Shown: one piece after another, positions 17,128 through 30,967 of the stretch
Numbering within the stretch: the first letter of the stretch is position 1
Layout of the letters: each line of letters begins with the position of its first letter
NCBI GenBank assembly: GCA_015206805.1
Contig: JADEZP010000009.1
Coordinates: 1 to 38,232 of the forward strand
DNA length: 38,232 nucleotides
Reading direction: 5' to 3'
Source: Quinella sp. 1Q7
GTDB taxonomy: Bacteria; Bacillota; Negativicutes; Selenomonadales; Selenomonadaceae
Program-made: the position numbers and the translations under genes
Notes under the pieces: model-generated
Seen by the model: the letters and a program-made list of their open reading frames with translations, nothing else
What the model was told of the DNA's origin: nothing
Database searches by the model: none

Positions 17128-18234
17128 ATGAGCTTGAAGAAAAAAATTATCGCGGCGTCGACGACTGCGGCTTTAGGTTTGTCGCTGACGTTCGGCGTGC
17201 CCGCGCAGGTTGCCGAAGCCGGCGGTTTGGAGACTGCCGTAAAAATCGGCGCAATCTTCGCGCAAGGTGCCTCGCTCAAAAGTCAGGCGCGCCAAGTCGT
17301 CAGACATCTCAACGAGACCGATGAAGGTCGCCAAGAACTTTACCAAAACCTTCGCGAAAAAAAAGGCGTCGATACCAGCTCCGAATACAACGCGAAACTC
17401 GAAAAGCTGATGACGAATTTGACGCGCGGCGTCGCGGCGGTTGATCCGACGATTAACGACAAGCCGTATCTGTATTTTGTTGCCGATGACGATACGCTCA
17501 ATGCCGCCTGCGGTATGGGTCACGTCATGATGGTCAATCGCGGGGCGTTCAAGGCGTTGCCCAACGAAGACGAACTTGCGGCGGTTGTCGGGCACGAAAT
17601 GGGGCACGGTCAAAAAAATCACGTCGCCAAATCCGTCGACAAGACTGTCGATTCGCAGATAACGGCGGGCGTGATAACTGCCGCGCTCGGCGGCGACGCG
17701 ATAACTTCGCTGATAACGAACATTGCCGTCGGACATACCAGCGCACATAAAGACAAAAAATTTGAGACCGAAGCCGACCTTTTGAGCATCGATTATCTCG
17801 TCAACACGCCGTACAATATCGGCGCGACGGCGGCGGTCATGCAACGGTTTGTCGAAATGTCAATCGGCAAGAAGCGTTCAACAATCGAAGCGATGTTCAA
17901 TCCCTCCGACCACCCCGACAGCGAAAAACGCCGCGACGCTTGCGCAAAGAAGCTCACCGAATACAGCGGCAACCACGTCACGGCTAAAGACGGCGTCGTC
18001 AGCGTGAACAAGAAAGCTTTCGCGACCGTCGCTGCGGCGGGCAATATGTCGGGCGCGGAACGTTCGTATTTTGTTATGGGCAACTTGGCGCGCGCCTATC
18101 ACGACGGGCAAAACAAATACGAAGCCACTGTTCAGAATGGCACCGTAATGCTCGGCTCGCAGGCGATTATCACGCCCGTTGACGGCGACGAAGACGCTTA
18201 CACCCTTGCCGAACGCCTGAACGCCATCAAATAA
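17128..18234 (+). CDS. Secreted M48 family metalloprotease
   Basis: A 368-residue zinc protease. The N-terminus is a signal peptide (MSLKKK, then a hydrophobic core ending around VAEAGG). The M48 motif HEMGH is at about residue 156, in AAVVGHEMGHGQKNHV, and the third zinc ligand is in FETEADLLSIDYL about 55 residues later. The C-terminal 80 residues (NPSDHPDSEKRRDACAKKL onwards) resemble the tail of periplasmic BepA/YfgC and LoiP relatives, which act in envelope quality control. GGGAGGAAGATTGTC stands before the ATG. It is monocistronic; the three-hairpin repeat begins 33 nt after its stop. Confidence 0.9.
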   Translation: MSLKKKIIAASTTAALGLSLTFGVPAQVAEAGGLETAVKIGAIFAQGASLKSQARQVVRHLNETDEGRQELYQNLREKKGVDTSSEYNAKLEKLMTNLTRGVAAVDPTINDKPYLYFVADDDTLNAACGMGHVMMVNRGAFKALPNEDELAAVVGHEMGHGQKNHVAKSVDKTVDSQITAGVITAALGGDAITSLITNIAVGHTSAHKDKKFETEADLLSIDYLVNTPYNIGATAAVMQRFVEMSIGKKRSTIEAMFNPSDHPDSEKRRDACAKKLTEYSGNHVTAKDGVVSVNKKAFATVAAAGNMSGAERSYFVMGNLARAYHDGQNKYEATVQNGTVMLGSQAIITPVDGDEDAYTLAERLNAIK

Positions 18235-18261: not shown

Positions 18262-18382
18262 TTATAACCTACTTTCTTTCGGCGGCGAAAGAAAGTAGGC
18301 AAAGAAAGCCGCGCCGCCTACGAAAACGTCACGTTTTCTAACGGCGGCGACCACGGCCGCACATCCATGTGCGGCCTCAAGC
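18262..18382 (+). repeat. Three-hairpin dispersed element, copy A
   Basis: Three consecutive inverted repeats follow the M48 gene. H1 at 18268-18299 has a perfect 14-bp stem, CCTACTTTCTTTCG with its complement, and a GCGG loop. H2 at 18312-18349 has arms CGCCGCC/GGCGGCG around the near-palindrome GAAAACGTCACGTTTTC. H3 at 18355-18376 has a 10-bp stem, GGCCGCACAT and its complement, with a CC loop. A second copy in the opposite orientation lies at 29057-29175. H1 and its right flank (CAAAGAAAGCCG) are identical in both copies. Confidence 0.9.
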
Positions 18383-18400
18383 AATATCGCTGATTTCAGC

Positions 18401-18439
18401 AAAAAAATTCCCGTCACTCCAATGAGCGGCGGGATTTTT
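18401..18439. terminator. Bidirectional terminator between the M48 protease and the carboxypeptidase
   Basis: CCCGTCACTC and GAGCGGCGGG pair around CAAT, with A7 on the left and T5 on the right. It closely resembles the terminator at 7481. Confidence 0.85.
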
Positions 18440-19575
18440 CACGTTATGAACGGCGCGATGATACTCACAAGCAGTGAACCGATGCTGAAGCCCGAATCGA
18501 CGTTTTCGCGGGCAACAAGCGGTACACGCGCGACGGGCTTGCCGTCGTAGCGCAGGACTGCCTCGCCAAGAACTTGACCTTCGGTAATTTCGGCGTCGAC
18601 CACTCGCGGCAATTCATACGTCACGCGCAAAAGTTTGGCGTCCTCGCCCGCCATAAGCGGAAATTTCAAGTCCTCGTCAATGCCGACGCGAACAGTCGCC
18701 TGCTCACCGCCGCGCACAAAAATTTTTTTTCGGGAACGTGACTTGCTGATACCGTCGACCATGCGCACGCGTTCGAAGCCGTAATTGAACAGGGCAGTCG
18801 CGTCGTCGAAGCGCGTTTCGTGATCGAACGAATGCATAACAACGGCGATAAGCTCGACATCTCCGCGCTTAGCCGACGCCGACAGACATCCGCCCGCCGC
18901 ATTCGTCCAGCCGGTCTTTATGCCGTTCGCGCCCTTGTATTTGCCCAAAAGTTCGTTCGTGTTGTTGAGTTCGGTCCATTTGTCTTTGGGCGATATCCAG
19001 TGAATTGACGTGCGGCGCGTCTCAACGAGTTTGCGGAATTCGGGATTTTTCATGCAGTAAACGGCAATGCGTGCCATATCGGCGGCGGTGGAGTAATGAT
19101 TTTTGTCGGGCAGTCCGTTGGGATTCATGAAGTGCGAATATCGGCAGCCGAGTGCGGCGGCTTTGGCGTTCATCATGTCGGCGAAATTTCCCGTGTTGCC
19201 CGCGACGGCTTGAGCAAGGGCGACTGCCCCGCCGTTTTCCGAAACGAGCATTACAGCCGTCAGCATGTCCCACGCGCTCAAAATGTCGCCCTCCGCCCAA
19301 GCAAGCGTGTTGTCCTCCGTGAAGACTGCCGCGCGGCTCATTTTGATTTCGTCGAGCGGATCGAGTTGCTCAAGCGCGATTATGCACGTCAGCATTTTTG
19401 TCATTGACGCGGGCTCACGTTCGGCGTCGGAATTTTTTTCGCAGATGATTCGCCCCGTCGACGCCTCGACCAAAATTGCCGAGTCCGCAGAAATTTTCGG
19501 CACGTCCGCCGCGAAAGTGATTGAGCTTGCCGCGAACATTGCGACGAAAATTATTGCGACAAAAATTTTTTTCAT
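18439..19575 (-). CDS. dacF: D-alanyl-D-alanine carboxypeptidase (PBP5/DacF type)
   Basis: A low-molecular-weight penicillin-binding protein that trims the terminal D-Ala of peptidoglycan stem peptides. The 378-residue protein starts with a signal peptide (MKKIFVAIIFVAMFAASSITFA). The three active-site motifs are complete: SMTK with Ser57 and Lys60, SEN at about 112-114, and KTGWT near 217. The C-terminal PBP5-associated beta domain is present, and the last residues (IGSLLVSIIAPFIT) could be a membrane anchor. The ATG at 19575 lies 5 nt after GGAGG; the frame upstream runs into the tRNA gene and is not coding. It may be cotranscribed with tRNA-Pro. Confidence 0.93.
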   Translation of the reverse strand: MKKIFVAIIFVAMFAASSITFAADVPKISADSAILVEASTGRIICEKNSDAEREPASMTKMLTCIIALEQLDPLDEIKMSRAAVFTEDNTLAWAEGDILSAWDMLTAVMLVSENGGAVALAQAVAGNTGNFADMMNAKAAALGCRYSHFMNPNGLPDKNHYSTAADMARIAVYCMKNPEFRKLVETRRTSIHWISPKDKWTELNNTNELLGKYKGANGIKTGWTNAAGGCLSASAKRGDVELIAVVMHSFDHETRFDDATALFNYGFERVRMVDGISKSRSRKKIFVRGGEQATVRVGIDEDLKFPLMAGEDAKLLRVTYELPRVVDAEITEGQVLGEAVLRYDGKPVARVPLVARENVDSGFSIGSLLVSIIAPFIT

Positions 19576-19637
19576 GACTGCCTCCGAAAACGCTAAAGGC
19601 GGAAGTTTTGCAACCTCCGCCTGAAAAATTTCTATGT

Positions 19638-19714
19638 TGGTCGGAACGACGAGACTTGAACTCACGACCTCTTCCACCCCAAGGAAGCGCTCTCCCAAAC
19701 TGAGCTACGTCCCG
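19638..19714 (-). tRNA. tRNA-Pro (anticodon GGG)
   Basis: A 77-nt cloverleaf. The acceptor stem CGGGACG/CGTTCCG pairs with one G-T, the D arm contains TAGCTCAGTTTGGGAGAGC, and the anticodon stem CTTCC/GGAAG encloses TTGGGGT with anticodon GGG. The T arm contains GTTCAAGTC, and the CCA end is encoded in the DNA. Confidence 0.96.
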
Positions 19715-29056: not shown

Positions 29057-29175
29057 TTGAGGCCGCCCAAGGATGGGCGGCCGTGCCCGCCGCGTTGAAA
29101 ACGTGACGTTTTCATTGCGGCGGCGGCTTTCTTTGCCTACTTTCTTTCGCCGCCGAAAGAAAGTAGGTTATACAA
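29057..29175 (-). repeat. Three-hairpin dispersed element, copy B
   Basis: Reverse-oriented copy of the element at 18262. H1 lies at 29136-29167 with the same 14-bp stem and loop. H2 is at about 29084-29127, with GC-rich arms around the same near-palindromic core at 29098-29114. H3 is at 29061-29082. H3 differs in sequence from copy A but keeps pairing: an A-T pair has become C-G. H1 begins 33 nt after the stop of the radical SAM gene, on the same strand. Confidence 0.9.
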
Positions 29176-29200: not shown

Positions 29201-30196
29201 TCAGCGCGACGCCGCAAATTCACACTTGCACCACGGTTCGCCGCTCATGAAGTCGCCGCCGTTGTAGCACGCCGCCCGCGCCCGACAGCCTCCGCAACGA
29301 TTTTTGTAACGGCACGCGCCGCAATTCCCGCTGTATTCGAGCGTCCGCAACGTCCGAAAAACTTTGTTCGACCGCCAAATTTCGTCGAAGGGCGTTTGCC
29401 GCACGTCGCCCAGTTCCATGTTCAGATACGCGCACGGCTGAACTTTCCCGCGCGGGCTGATAATGCAGTAACTCAATCCCGCAAGGCAGCCGCGCTTGAA
29501 ACGTGTCTTGACGCCGAGTTGGTCGGCAATGCGTATAAATTGCGGCGCGCATGTCGGCTTGAGTTCGATTGGAACTTCGCGTTGCTTGAGCATGATTCGC
29601 GTCAGAACATTTTCGTAACCGTCGGCGCGAAGTGATTCCTCCTCAATCGTCGCCGCTCGACCTGTCGGCACCAGAAAGAAGAAGTGATGCGCTTTAGCCC
29701 CGATTGTGACCGCGAAGTCAGTCAACGCCTCCAGCTCGTGCTGATTCCAATCCATAACCGTCGTGTGAATTTGGAAGGGCAAGTCCGCCGCGAGACAATT
29801 TTTCATGCCGTCGACTGCACCTTGCCACGCGCCCGCGAACGAGCGGAATTTGTCGTGCTTATCGGCGTCGAGTGAGTCCAGCGAAATTCCCATGCCCTTC
29901 GCGCCCGCAGACTTCAAGTCGCGAGCCATTTGCGGCGTGATAAGCGTGCCGTTCGTGCCGAAGACCGCGATTAACTTCAGACGCGTGGCGTGCTCCACCA
30001 GCTCCAAAATGTCGGGGCGCATGAGCGGTTCTCCGCCCGAAAAAATCATTATCTTGAATCCTGCGCGGGCAATTTGATTGAGCAACTCTTTGGCTTCGGC
30101 GGTCGAAAGTTCTTCTTGCGCCTTGCAGCCGGCGTCGCGGTAACAATGTGCGCAATACATATTGCAAGCGTTGGTCGTGTTCCATGAGACAATCAA
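29201..30196 (-). CDS. nirJ2: Radical SAM/SPASM protein, NirJ2-like haem biosynthesis enzyme
   Basis: A 331-residue radical SAM enzyme. The cluster motif CNMYCAHC (Cys 11, 15, 18) is at the very N-terminus, GGEPLMRPDI follows, and the C-terminal SPASM region carries at least seven cysteines (RGCLAGLSYC, VQPCAYLN, GNCGACRYKNRCGGCRA). This pattern and the WNTTNACNMYCAHCYRDAG start match the proteins called NirJ2 in Negativicutes and Clostridia, relatives of AhbC/AhbD that modify side chains of haem precursors in the sirohaem-dependent route. The start TTG at 30196 has GGGAGG 7-8 nt upstream; the open frame beyond it is antisense to the flavodoxin gene and not coding. It is divergent from the flavodoxin. 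Confidence 0.85.
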   Translation of the reverse strand: MIVSWNTTNACNMYCAHCYRDAGCKAQEELSTAEAKELLNQIARAGFKIMIFSGGEPLMRPDILELVEHATRLKLIAVFGTNGTLITPQMARDLKSAGAKGMGISLDSLDADKHDKFRSFAGAWQGAVDGMKNCLAADLPFQIHTTVMDWNQHELEALTDFAVTIGAKAHHFFFLVPTGRAATIEEESLRADGYENVLTRIMLKQREVPIELKPTCAPQFIRIADQLGVKTRFKRGCLAGLSYCIISPRGKVQPCAYLNMELGDVRQTPFDEIWRSNKVFRTLRTLEYSGNCGACRYKNRCGGCRARAACYNGGDFMSGEPWCKCEFAASR

Positions 30197-30294
30197 GTCA
30201 ATCCCTCCCGCCGAAAATATTCTGTCGCGTGAAATTTTTTCCTGCAGAGCGTCGGCACTGACGGTGATCGGAAAATTTTTTTTGCGCAGGATGT

Positions 30295-30324
30295 TTGCTT
30301 TAAGCCGACTCCCAAATTTATAAT
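30295..30324 (+). promoter_or_regulatory. Predicted promoter for the flavodoxin gene
   Basis: TTGCTT, an 18-bp spacer and a perfect TATAAT, about 32 bp before the start codon of the gene at 30356. Confidence 0.55.
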
Positions 30325-30355
30325 CGACGCAGAAAAATTTTTCGGAGGTATCGAC

Positions 30356-30967
30356 ATGGACATCACGCGCAGAAATTTTATCAAGCTTGCGGCGGCGGGC
30401 GGACTGATTCTGTCGGCGGGCAAAGTTTTCGCCGCGACGAATGAAAAAATTTTGGTCGCTTACTTTTCGCGCACGGGCGAGGAATACGGCGTCGGACACA
30501 TTGCCAAGGGCAACACCGAGATTGTCGCCGAACTCATCGCGCAGAAAATCGGCGGAGACATTTTCAAGATTGAGCCCGTCACGCCCTACCCCGACGGCTA
30601 CGAAGACTGCAAGACCGTTGCAAGCCGCGAAAAGGCGACTAAGGCGCGACCTGCCTTCGCGGGCGACGTTGCGGACTTCGCGCAGTACACAATGATTTTC
30701 GTCGGCTATCCGATTTGGTACGGCGACGCGCCGCAGATTATTTACACGTTTCTTGAGCGTTACGACTTCGGCGGCAAAAAAATCGTCCCGTTTTGCACGC
30801 ATGGCGGTAGCGGACTTTCGGGCACGGAGCAGCGCATTTCGTTGACGTGTCCCGCCGCGCAGTTGCTCAAAGGTTTTGCAATATCGGGTCGGACGGCGCA
30901 AAGTGATCGTTCGCAGACTGACAGGCTTGTCGACGAAAATTTGCGGCGGTTTGGATTAATCGGCTGA
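30356..30967 (+). CDS. Tat-exported flavodoxin-like protein
   Basis: A 203-residue protein with a twin-arginine signal (MDITRRNFIKLAAAGG, hydrophobic core to VFAATN), followed by a flavodoxin fold. The FMN phosphate loop is YFSRTGEEYG, the isoalloxazine-contact region is FVGYPIWYGDAP, and the third loop is FCTHGGSGLSG. Relatives are short-chain flavodoxin_4 proteins, thought to carry electrons or reduce quinones outside the membrane. GGAGG stands 8 nt before the ATG. A short second copy of its start lies 20 bp after its stop. Its divergence from a radical SAM gene may reflect a redox link, but Tat export argues against direct electron supply. Confidence 0.88.
   Translation: MDITRRNFIKLAAAGGLILSAGKVFAATNEKILVAYFSRTGEEYGVGHIAKGNTEIVAELIAQKIGGDIFKIEPVTPYPDGYEDCKTVASREKATKARPAFAGDVADFAQYTMIFVGYPIWYGDAPQIIYTFLERYDFGGKKIVPFCTHGGSGLSGTEQRISLTCPAAQLLKGFAISGRTAQSDRSQTDRLVDENLRRFGLIG

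Follow-up and report, generated by a model that had tools for sequence, protein, structure and literature searches.

REP/BIME elements are dispersed intergenic palindromes that occur singly or as inverted pairs. Another kind of bacterial repeat, described by Holder et al. (2015; PMC4666352), has the potential to fold into an intrastrand triplex, the three strands of its class II following one another in pyrimidine-purine-purine order. As that paper presents it, BoxC/TM_ECO is G/C-rich and intergenic, has no strand bias, lies 10-310 nt from genes and sometimes forms inverted pairs; its triplex is stable in vitro, in vivo footprinting gave no support, and the repeat has been linked to instability. 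By the same account, triplex stability is driven by G.G-C triplets in the purine motif and by T.A-T triplets in the pyrimidine motif; the pyrimidine motif can form in RNA, and purine-motif triplexes cannot. Hoyne and Maher are credited there with 21 such motifs in H. influenzae.

How does the present locus compare? The window (the whole stretch of DNA analysed, 38,232 nt; contig C130 of a genome of 2.58 Mb in 169 contigs) holds a unit whose first hairpin, together with the AAAGAAAG linker that follows it, has the Y-R-R layout of a “potential intrastrand triplex”. Judged by this layout, the core belongs to a kind of repeat already known. Like BoxC, PIT and TM_ECO as described by Holder et al. 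(PMC4666352), it has the class II order, is intergenic, shows no strand bias, lies at variable distances from genes, occurs occasionally as close inverted pairs and differs sharply in copy number between close relatives. Unlike BoxC, which is G/C-rich in that description, it is A/T-rich and has a loop/tail pseudoknot, proposed from complementarity, two linked hairpins and covariation of three strands; unlike REP/BIME, which are RAYT-associated, it is larger and has a triplex core, and no Y1 domain was found in its own genome. BoxC/TM_ECO itself was considered and rejected: its consensus, CCCTCNCCC...GGGNGAGGG...GGGNGAGGG, is G/C-rich, and the stems here are CTTTCTTT/AAAGAAAG. Loop 1 of the window copies is 8 nt long; the finder of Holder et al. 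allows 1-6 nt and that of Hoyne 0-10 nt (PMC4666352). Some A/T-rich copies are probably already in the Holder et al. database. The strings “pseudoknot” and “covar” do not occur in the main text of PMC4666352; a literature search, with subscription papers mostly outside it, found no description of the A/T-rich family's covariation, lock or attached hairpins, and a search of the same coverage with the core strings gave no relevant paper. The evidence below, drawn from sequence comparison, makes it probable that the unit is a dispersed intergenic DNA repeat with a BoxC-like potential intrastrand triplex, A/T-rich and more elaborate, that is selected for its single-strand fold.

Layout of the two window copies

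Both copies that the earlier note had placed at 18262-18382 (+) and 29057-29175 (-) are present, and they are the only two matches of the core pattern in the window (0.00 expected from 100 shuffles). Folded as single strands and compared with 200 shuffles each, they give the three hairpins in the order claimed (z -8.6 and -9.1; 0/200 shuffles as good). The hairpins thus stood; a description by hairpins was incomplete, since the linker and the hairpin-1 loop join the proposed triplex and pseudoknot. The features, all in window coordinates, are:

17128..18234 (+), M48 peptidase gene, a neighbour outside the unit; its stop lies 33 nt before copy 1 hairpin 1
18268..18299 (+), copy 1 hairpin 1: pyrimidine arm CCTACTTTCTTTCG, loop GCGG, purine arm CGAAAGAAAGTAGG
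18282..18286 (+), copy 1 GCGGC in the loop region of hairpin 1; loop/tail complementarity suggests 18308-18312 as its pseudoknot partner
18301..18308 (+), copy 1 linker AAAGAAAG, proposed third strand; mirrors the purine arm at 18287-18294 (mirror covariation)
18308..18312 (+), copy 1 GCCGC at the linker end, proposed pseudoknot partner of 18282-18286; one base is common with the linker and one with hairpin 2
18312..18349 (+), copy 1 hairpin 2: outer stem GC-rich, inner GAAAACGTCACGTTTTC
18355..18376 (+), copy 1 hairpin 3 (GGCCGCACATCCATGTGCGGCC); the stem covaries over 30 copies
18377..18435 (+), 3' extension after copy 1, common to one other copy
29061..29082 (-), copy 2 hairpin 3 (GGCCGCCCATCCTTGGGCGGCC), from sequence and fold
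29085..29127 (-), copy 2 hairpin 2, from sequence and fold
29127..29134 (-), copy 2 linker AAAGAAAG, proposed third strand, from the core pattern match
29136..29167 (-), copy 2 hairpin 1, from sequence and fold
29201..30901 (-), radical SAM/SPASM gene, a neighbour outside the unit; its stop lies 33 nt before copy 2 hairpin 1

The stretch 18266-18435 is 97% identical to one on another contig of the same genome (G000:C43), and about 45 nt upstream of hairpin 1 appear, by eye, semi-conserved in many copies. At the gathering threshold, Rfam places no family on the element, the one match in the window being a tRNA; with the limit relaxed to E 10, over seven loci, only chance-level or sub-threshold matches touch copies. 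Among these, Bp1_684 (RF02421) has two sub-threshold matches at a copy in Caballeronia sp. NK8 (L051; 39.2 and 34.7 bits vs 44), the first of which covers the outer flank and the hairpin's first bases, not the core. Elsewhere in the window, a tRNA at 19641-19714 (-) runs over the 5' end of an ORF listed as S11 peptidase (18439-19698), so the true start of this ORF is probably further in.

Covariation of arms, linker, loop and tail

Linker and purine arm mirror each other: the linker CAAAAGAAA accompanies the arm AAAGAAAAG, and the linker CAAAAAGAAA the arm AAAGAAAAAG. How far does this hold where the search left the sequence free? In arm and linker alike, only the inner AAAGAAA was set by the search pattern, leaving the outer runs (at least 3) open. 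Among 110 distinct rows from the window's class, most of them from its genus, arm and linker have equal outer A-runs in 107 (39 of length 3, 45 of 4 and 23 of 5), with a shuffle mean of 38.9 and a maximum of 62 in 10,000 shuffles that leave copy kinship uncorrected; several run-length classes coexist within single genomes. A sample centred on Caballeronia (89 rows from 29 of 32 core-positive genomes) has equal run lengths in 85 rows, against 44.1 in shuffles (maximum 60; copy kinship again uncorrected). Across 223 distinct copies taken from loci, many found by a pattern fixing the outer run at 3, 218 have matching outer runs and 193 matching inner runs, the inner runs of the other 30 disagreeing; among the named-genome matches listed, the inner run agrees in 50 of 61 distinct rows.

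The order of the runs bears on their origin. Where the two runs of an arm are unequal (109 rows), the linker has them in mirror order 87 times, in direct order never and in neither order 22 times; direct copying of the arm gives direct order, so the mirror order does not come from it. Mirror order is the requirement of a third strand antiparallel to the purine arm (A.A-T and G.G-C triplets), and it equally suits a pyrimidine third strand on the complementary strand (T.A-T and C+.G-C). A cruder 7-mer scan, with 269 mirror and 181 direct matches, cannot separate the two orders because AAGAAAG also matches off register. The substitution spectrum, as a guide to purine vs pyrimidine motif, consists of 10 one-mismatch linkers, some of which equal the reverse reading of the hairpin. 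All the elements of a class II triplex are there, namely a Y arm, an R arm and an R third strand, on one strand and mirrored: the window copies have 7-8 triplets where the definition asks for 6-15, the eighth base being common to linker and lock.

That lock is the complementarity of the hairpin-1 loop to the bases directly behind the linker: in the window GCGGC/GCCGC, and elsewhere GCTGC/GCAGC, TCGCC/GGCGA, TGTGC/GCACA, CTTGAT/ATCAAG and GCGAA/TTCGC. The longest loop/tail complement averages 4.57 vs 3.33 with tails dealt among rows (0/2000 shuffles as high) and is at least 4 in 49 of 61 distinct rows; over the 223 copies, the mean is 4.51 vs 3.32 (shuffle maximum 3.54 of 500), with at least 4 in 182 and fewer in 41. 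Rows without a loop/tail complement exist (e.g., L061, L062, L083). Copies within one genome are related and the shuffles leave this kinship in; the breadth of lineages is therefore the better argument. Arm pairing and loop/tail pairing together would make an H-type pseudoknot, its linker spanning the long stem.

Over 30 own-genome copies, hairpin pairs stay formed in 99.3% of cells and two-sided changes number 26 vs 6.0 in shuffles, with lower counts for every slid version; 25 of the 26 fall in hairpin 3 and one in hairpin 1. Further pair types (10) are no higher than in shuffles (9.8) of the same copies. An A-T to C-G change noticed earlier between the two window copies of hairpin 3 is real, the pair being AU in 14, GC in 10, CG in 5 and UA in 1 of 30 genomic copies. 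Window copy 2 alone among the 30 departs from the aligned hairpin-2 stem and folds its own stem instead. Hairpins 2 and 3 are met again in relatives, where the stems differ and the loops are similar (ATCAC/GTCAC and TCCA/TCCT types); two or more such hairpins are found in 14/14 distinct own copies, 7/9 Quinella copies and 14/28 copies of relatives, and Quinella and uncultured Selenomonadales records show a similar three-hairpin layout. The earlier suggestion of selection on structure gains support from the mirror covariation of arm and linker, from the loop/tail complementarity and from the two-sided hairpin changes; it is very likely that the fold is under selection. We infer that selection for a real triplex lies behind the covariation, and the selected form would be single-stranded DNA.

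Surroundings, spread and possible movement

In both window copies, hairpin 1 does begin 33 nt after a stop, as the earlier note had observed; the fixed distance it drew from this fails. Measured from the same-strand upstream stop to TTTCTTT, the distance runs from 10 to 488 nt (35 cases, own genome and relatives), and it likewise varies widely over 30 own-genome copies with flanks; the two equal distances are a coincidence of two. In the own genome and relatives, 56 of 63 sites lie outside ORFs of at least 80 aa and 7 inside, counts that are approximate because genes were called by a simple longest-ORF rule. Tandem regions hold 19 sense (++) and 17 antisense (--) copies, convergent regions 16 and divergent regions 4 (convergent > divergent, p 0.012). 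The pattern is that of an intergenic repeat avoiding promoters, not of a sense 3' UTR element, and the sites are intergenic and without strand bias, as expected of class II triplex repeats. A terminator or 3' UTR RNA element placed at a constant distance from the stop, which the earlier note had put forward, would account for the two 33-nt starts and for the shortage of copies in divergent regions; given the range of distances, the many antisense copies and the absence of a T-tract directly after hairpin 3 in both window copies, it is very unlikely.

The exact core pattern occurs at 97 places in the own genome (48 and 49 by strand) and its reversed-pattern control at 0; the earlier note had held that a lack of further copies would count against it, and about 100 are there. 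A similarity search of the own genome with copy 1, in which 40 of 128 first-look candidates were scored, gave 40 units 82% to 100% identical to it on many contigs and both strands, 38 of them spanning at least 107 of 121 nt and the other two 82 and 89 nt. Core numbers differ widely among relatives: the exact pattern is present in 35/300 sampled genomes of the window's class, and 24 same-genus relatives range from 0 copies in five to 217 in another (247 by a wider pattern), with 342 copies, by a slightly wider pattern, in one genome of another genus of the same family. Reversed-pattern controls in the class sample are 0 in nearly all genomes and reach 3 at most, in G283 and G295.

The core also occurs far outside this class. 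It is found in 32/143 genomes of the class of Caballeronia glathei (controls 0); plasmid Blast with the unit matched 10 records (for 9, the match falls in the first ~46 nt of the unit), from Caballeronia, Paraburkholderia, Pasteurella and others, and with the Caballeronia form 20 records. A search of phages gave 3 weak records. A pattern scan of named genomes found at least 116 stretches; the 80 loci listed include some from Beta- and Gammaproteobacteria, Pasteurellaceae, Desulfuromonadales, Clostridia, UBP11 and Selenomonadales including Quinella, and also from Bacteroidota (Mucilaginibacter, Segetibacter, Flavipsychrobacter) and Spirochaetota. By the same pattern, Caballeronia glathei has 64 copies, Quinella sp. 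2Q5 56, Mucilaginibacter 8, Dechloromonas 7, Haemophilus aegyptius 3 and a Spirochaetota MAG 2. E. coli genomes searched with the typed core gave no match. The link suggested earlier between hairpins of the AAAGAAAGTAGG type and proteobacterial repeats is borne out by the core in proteobacterial plasmids and genomes; on these matches, hairpin 1 is best described as a cross-phylum module. Viral contigs gave 20 exact-core matches that were rejected: none has, by eye, the pyrimidine arm in the 60 nt upstream, so they are chance A-rich sequence.

Some arrangements of copies recur. In Quinella G005, same-strand neighbouring copies lie 175-194 bp apart (e.g., C15:12563/12756, C22:36029/36223, C29:11389/11564, C41:9730/9923); in C. 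glathei (G002), convergent inverted pairs, ~450-550 bp apart and spread over many contigs, account for many of the 64 cores. A second motif seen by eye, AACTCG...CTCAGACA/CTCAAACA, recurs in several Beta- and Gammaproteobacteria at a distance of 60-150 nt past the core (L131, L084, L078, L068 and other proteobacterial loci). In the Thiobacillus region L078, the A/T-rich core is followed, downstream of 5134 (+), by a BoxC-like triplex motif that is G/C-rich (CCCCTCTCCC...GGGAGAGG...GGGGAGAGGG).

Haemophilus offers a comparison of alleles. A ~488-bp convergent inverted pair of cores lies between fabH- and fabD-like genes (L183:1471-1975); in the same interval, some Haemophilus genomes have the ~488-bp pair and others partial pairs, and in one (G470; L308:1841-1925) the pair is cleanly absent, with an 18-bp palindrome, GTCAGGCGAAATCCTGAC, in its place. 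For a target duplication, the comparison offers only 2 ambiguous shared bases; insertion into the palindrome and precise loss both fit. H. aegyptius has the core as convergent inverted pairs at two sites, and at a third (L189:48-3038) it has a core-bearing half-element, flanked by genes for a fimbrial adhesin and for topoisomerase subunit A. The intergenic dyad sequences (IDS) of Haemophilus are said, in a passage on a pilus locus, to matter for gene-locus mobility (PMC4144887); that the published IDS are the present repeat is only a lead. Upstream of the core in L270-L329, many of the 17 distinct contexts start with a short hairpin whose stem varies yet stays paired (GTCAGG/CCTGAC, CATTAGG/CCTAATG, TATCGG/CCGATG); its loop TTTCGCC is complementary to a following GGCGA, a second pseudoknot-like piece.

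What might move the unit? A non-autonomous repeat of REP/MITE type had been suggested. The dispersed part of that suggestion is upheld by copy number, by scatter and by the Haemophilus relative's allele without the core; the strict REP part is not, no Y1 transposase domain being found in the own genome. REP/BIME-like mobilisation by a RAYT or an IS200/IS605 Y1 transposase would suit a palindromic, intergenic, high-copy element, and Y1 does match above the cut-off in one relative of high copy number, G283 (119 copies). PF01797 passes that cut-off in 4/31 genomes, with any match in 5; it was not found in the own genome (G000, 95% complete) or in five high-copy relatives (G296, G292, G135, G263, G319), all in incomplete assemblies, which makes this the least probable of the readings weighed. 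No terminal repeats were seen by eye in own-genome copies, and for units of the window's type neither a transposase nor a target duplication nor an empty site came to light. At the M48 site, where the exact core pattern was applied up to 260 nt from the stop, 3/18 relatives with readable tails have an element, each of another subfamily and one in opposite orientation; the identity (77% at best) is too low to give a junction.

Holder et al. propose that BoxC is an obstacle to replication or repair, kept or tolerated for genome plasticity (PMC4666352). The same view, with units that are themselves immobile, could be taken of the present repeat, which is of the same motif kind, intergenic and without strand bias, and which forms partial pairs at shared Haemophilus sites. 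Near-identical copies at unrelated sites (L001, which is copy 1, and L002 agree in 117/117 bases) and a range of 0 to 217 copies within a genus speak against it: copying or movement is needed, beyond instability, and immobile obstacles are rather improbable here. The dispersed pattern points instead to a DNA repeat that may be moved by an enzyme reading the folded strand.

The proposed fold and what it would mean

For the intergenic DNA repeat favoured here, folding would begin when the Y-R-R strand is exposed as single during replication or repair or in a transposition intermediate. The pyrimidine arm CTTTCTTT would pair with the purine arm AAAGAAAG, and the AAAGAAAG linker that follows would run back antiparallel along the purine arm as the third strand, in A.A-T and G.G-C triplets. 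The post-linker bases, pairing with the hairpin-1 loop, would pin this strand, and hairpins 2 and 3 would then follow. Copies would spread as a non-autonomous unit served by an enzyme that recognises the fold.

If the same covariation can be read on either strand, why prefer DNA? The functional molecule could be RNA of the opposite strand, UUUCUUU - CUUUCUUU - loop - AAAGAAAG, folded as an H-type pseudoknot, its first loop, rich in pyrimidines, set into the long stem's major groove in U.A-U triplets and one C+.G-C triplet; its role might be that of a multicopy noncoding RNA or of an end that stabilises RNA. Such a fold would presumably resemble telomerase-type and MALAT1-type triple helices. 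Mirror covariation and lock hold equally on the complement, and two terminator-like sites on that strand lie inside the copy 2 unit, vs 0.9 (sd 1.0) in shuffles of both strands. Pyrimidine-motif triplexes, driven by T.A-T, can form in RNA according to Holder et al. (PMC4666352), so that the A-rich triplets would be more stable on the opposite strand and count against the purine reading. Against the RNA, gene orientation is inconsistent on either strand, no promoter-like site is found on that strand at either window copy, and the only terminator-like site of copy 1 lies outside the hairpins, in a count equal to that of shuffles; Rfam gives no match at the gathering threshold, and a hundred copies per genome would be odd for an RNA gene. 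An opposite-strand RNA is therefore unlikely, and single-stranded DNA is the first choice because gene orientation is random and purine-motif triplexes, as stated in PMC4666352, do not form in RNA.

Arm, arm and third strand covary both in the window's class and in that of Caballeronia, and the core reaches Bacteroidota and Spirochaetota. A wider claim can be made only tentatively from these alignments: a locked intrastrand triple helix may be the selected fold of a widespread class of bacterial repeats, or else an opposite-strand U.A-U RNA pseudoknot may be, and either way the triplex would be the recognition structure for non-autonomous spread. The in vivo relevance of intrastrand triplexes has been an open question, BoxC folding in vitro and footprinting being unsupportive in the account of PMC4666352; three-strand mirror covariation in more than one lineage is evolutionary evidence of a kind not found in the text of that paper. 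The pseudoknot lock offers a concrete, mutable model, and the fold would bring dispersed intergenic repeats from Burkholderiaceae, Pasteurellaceae, Selenomonadales and other groups under a single structural name.
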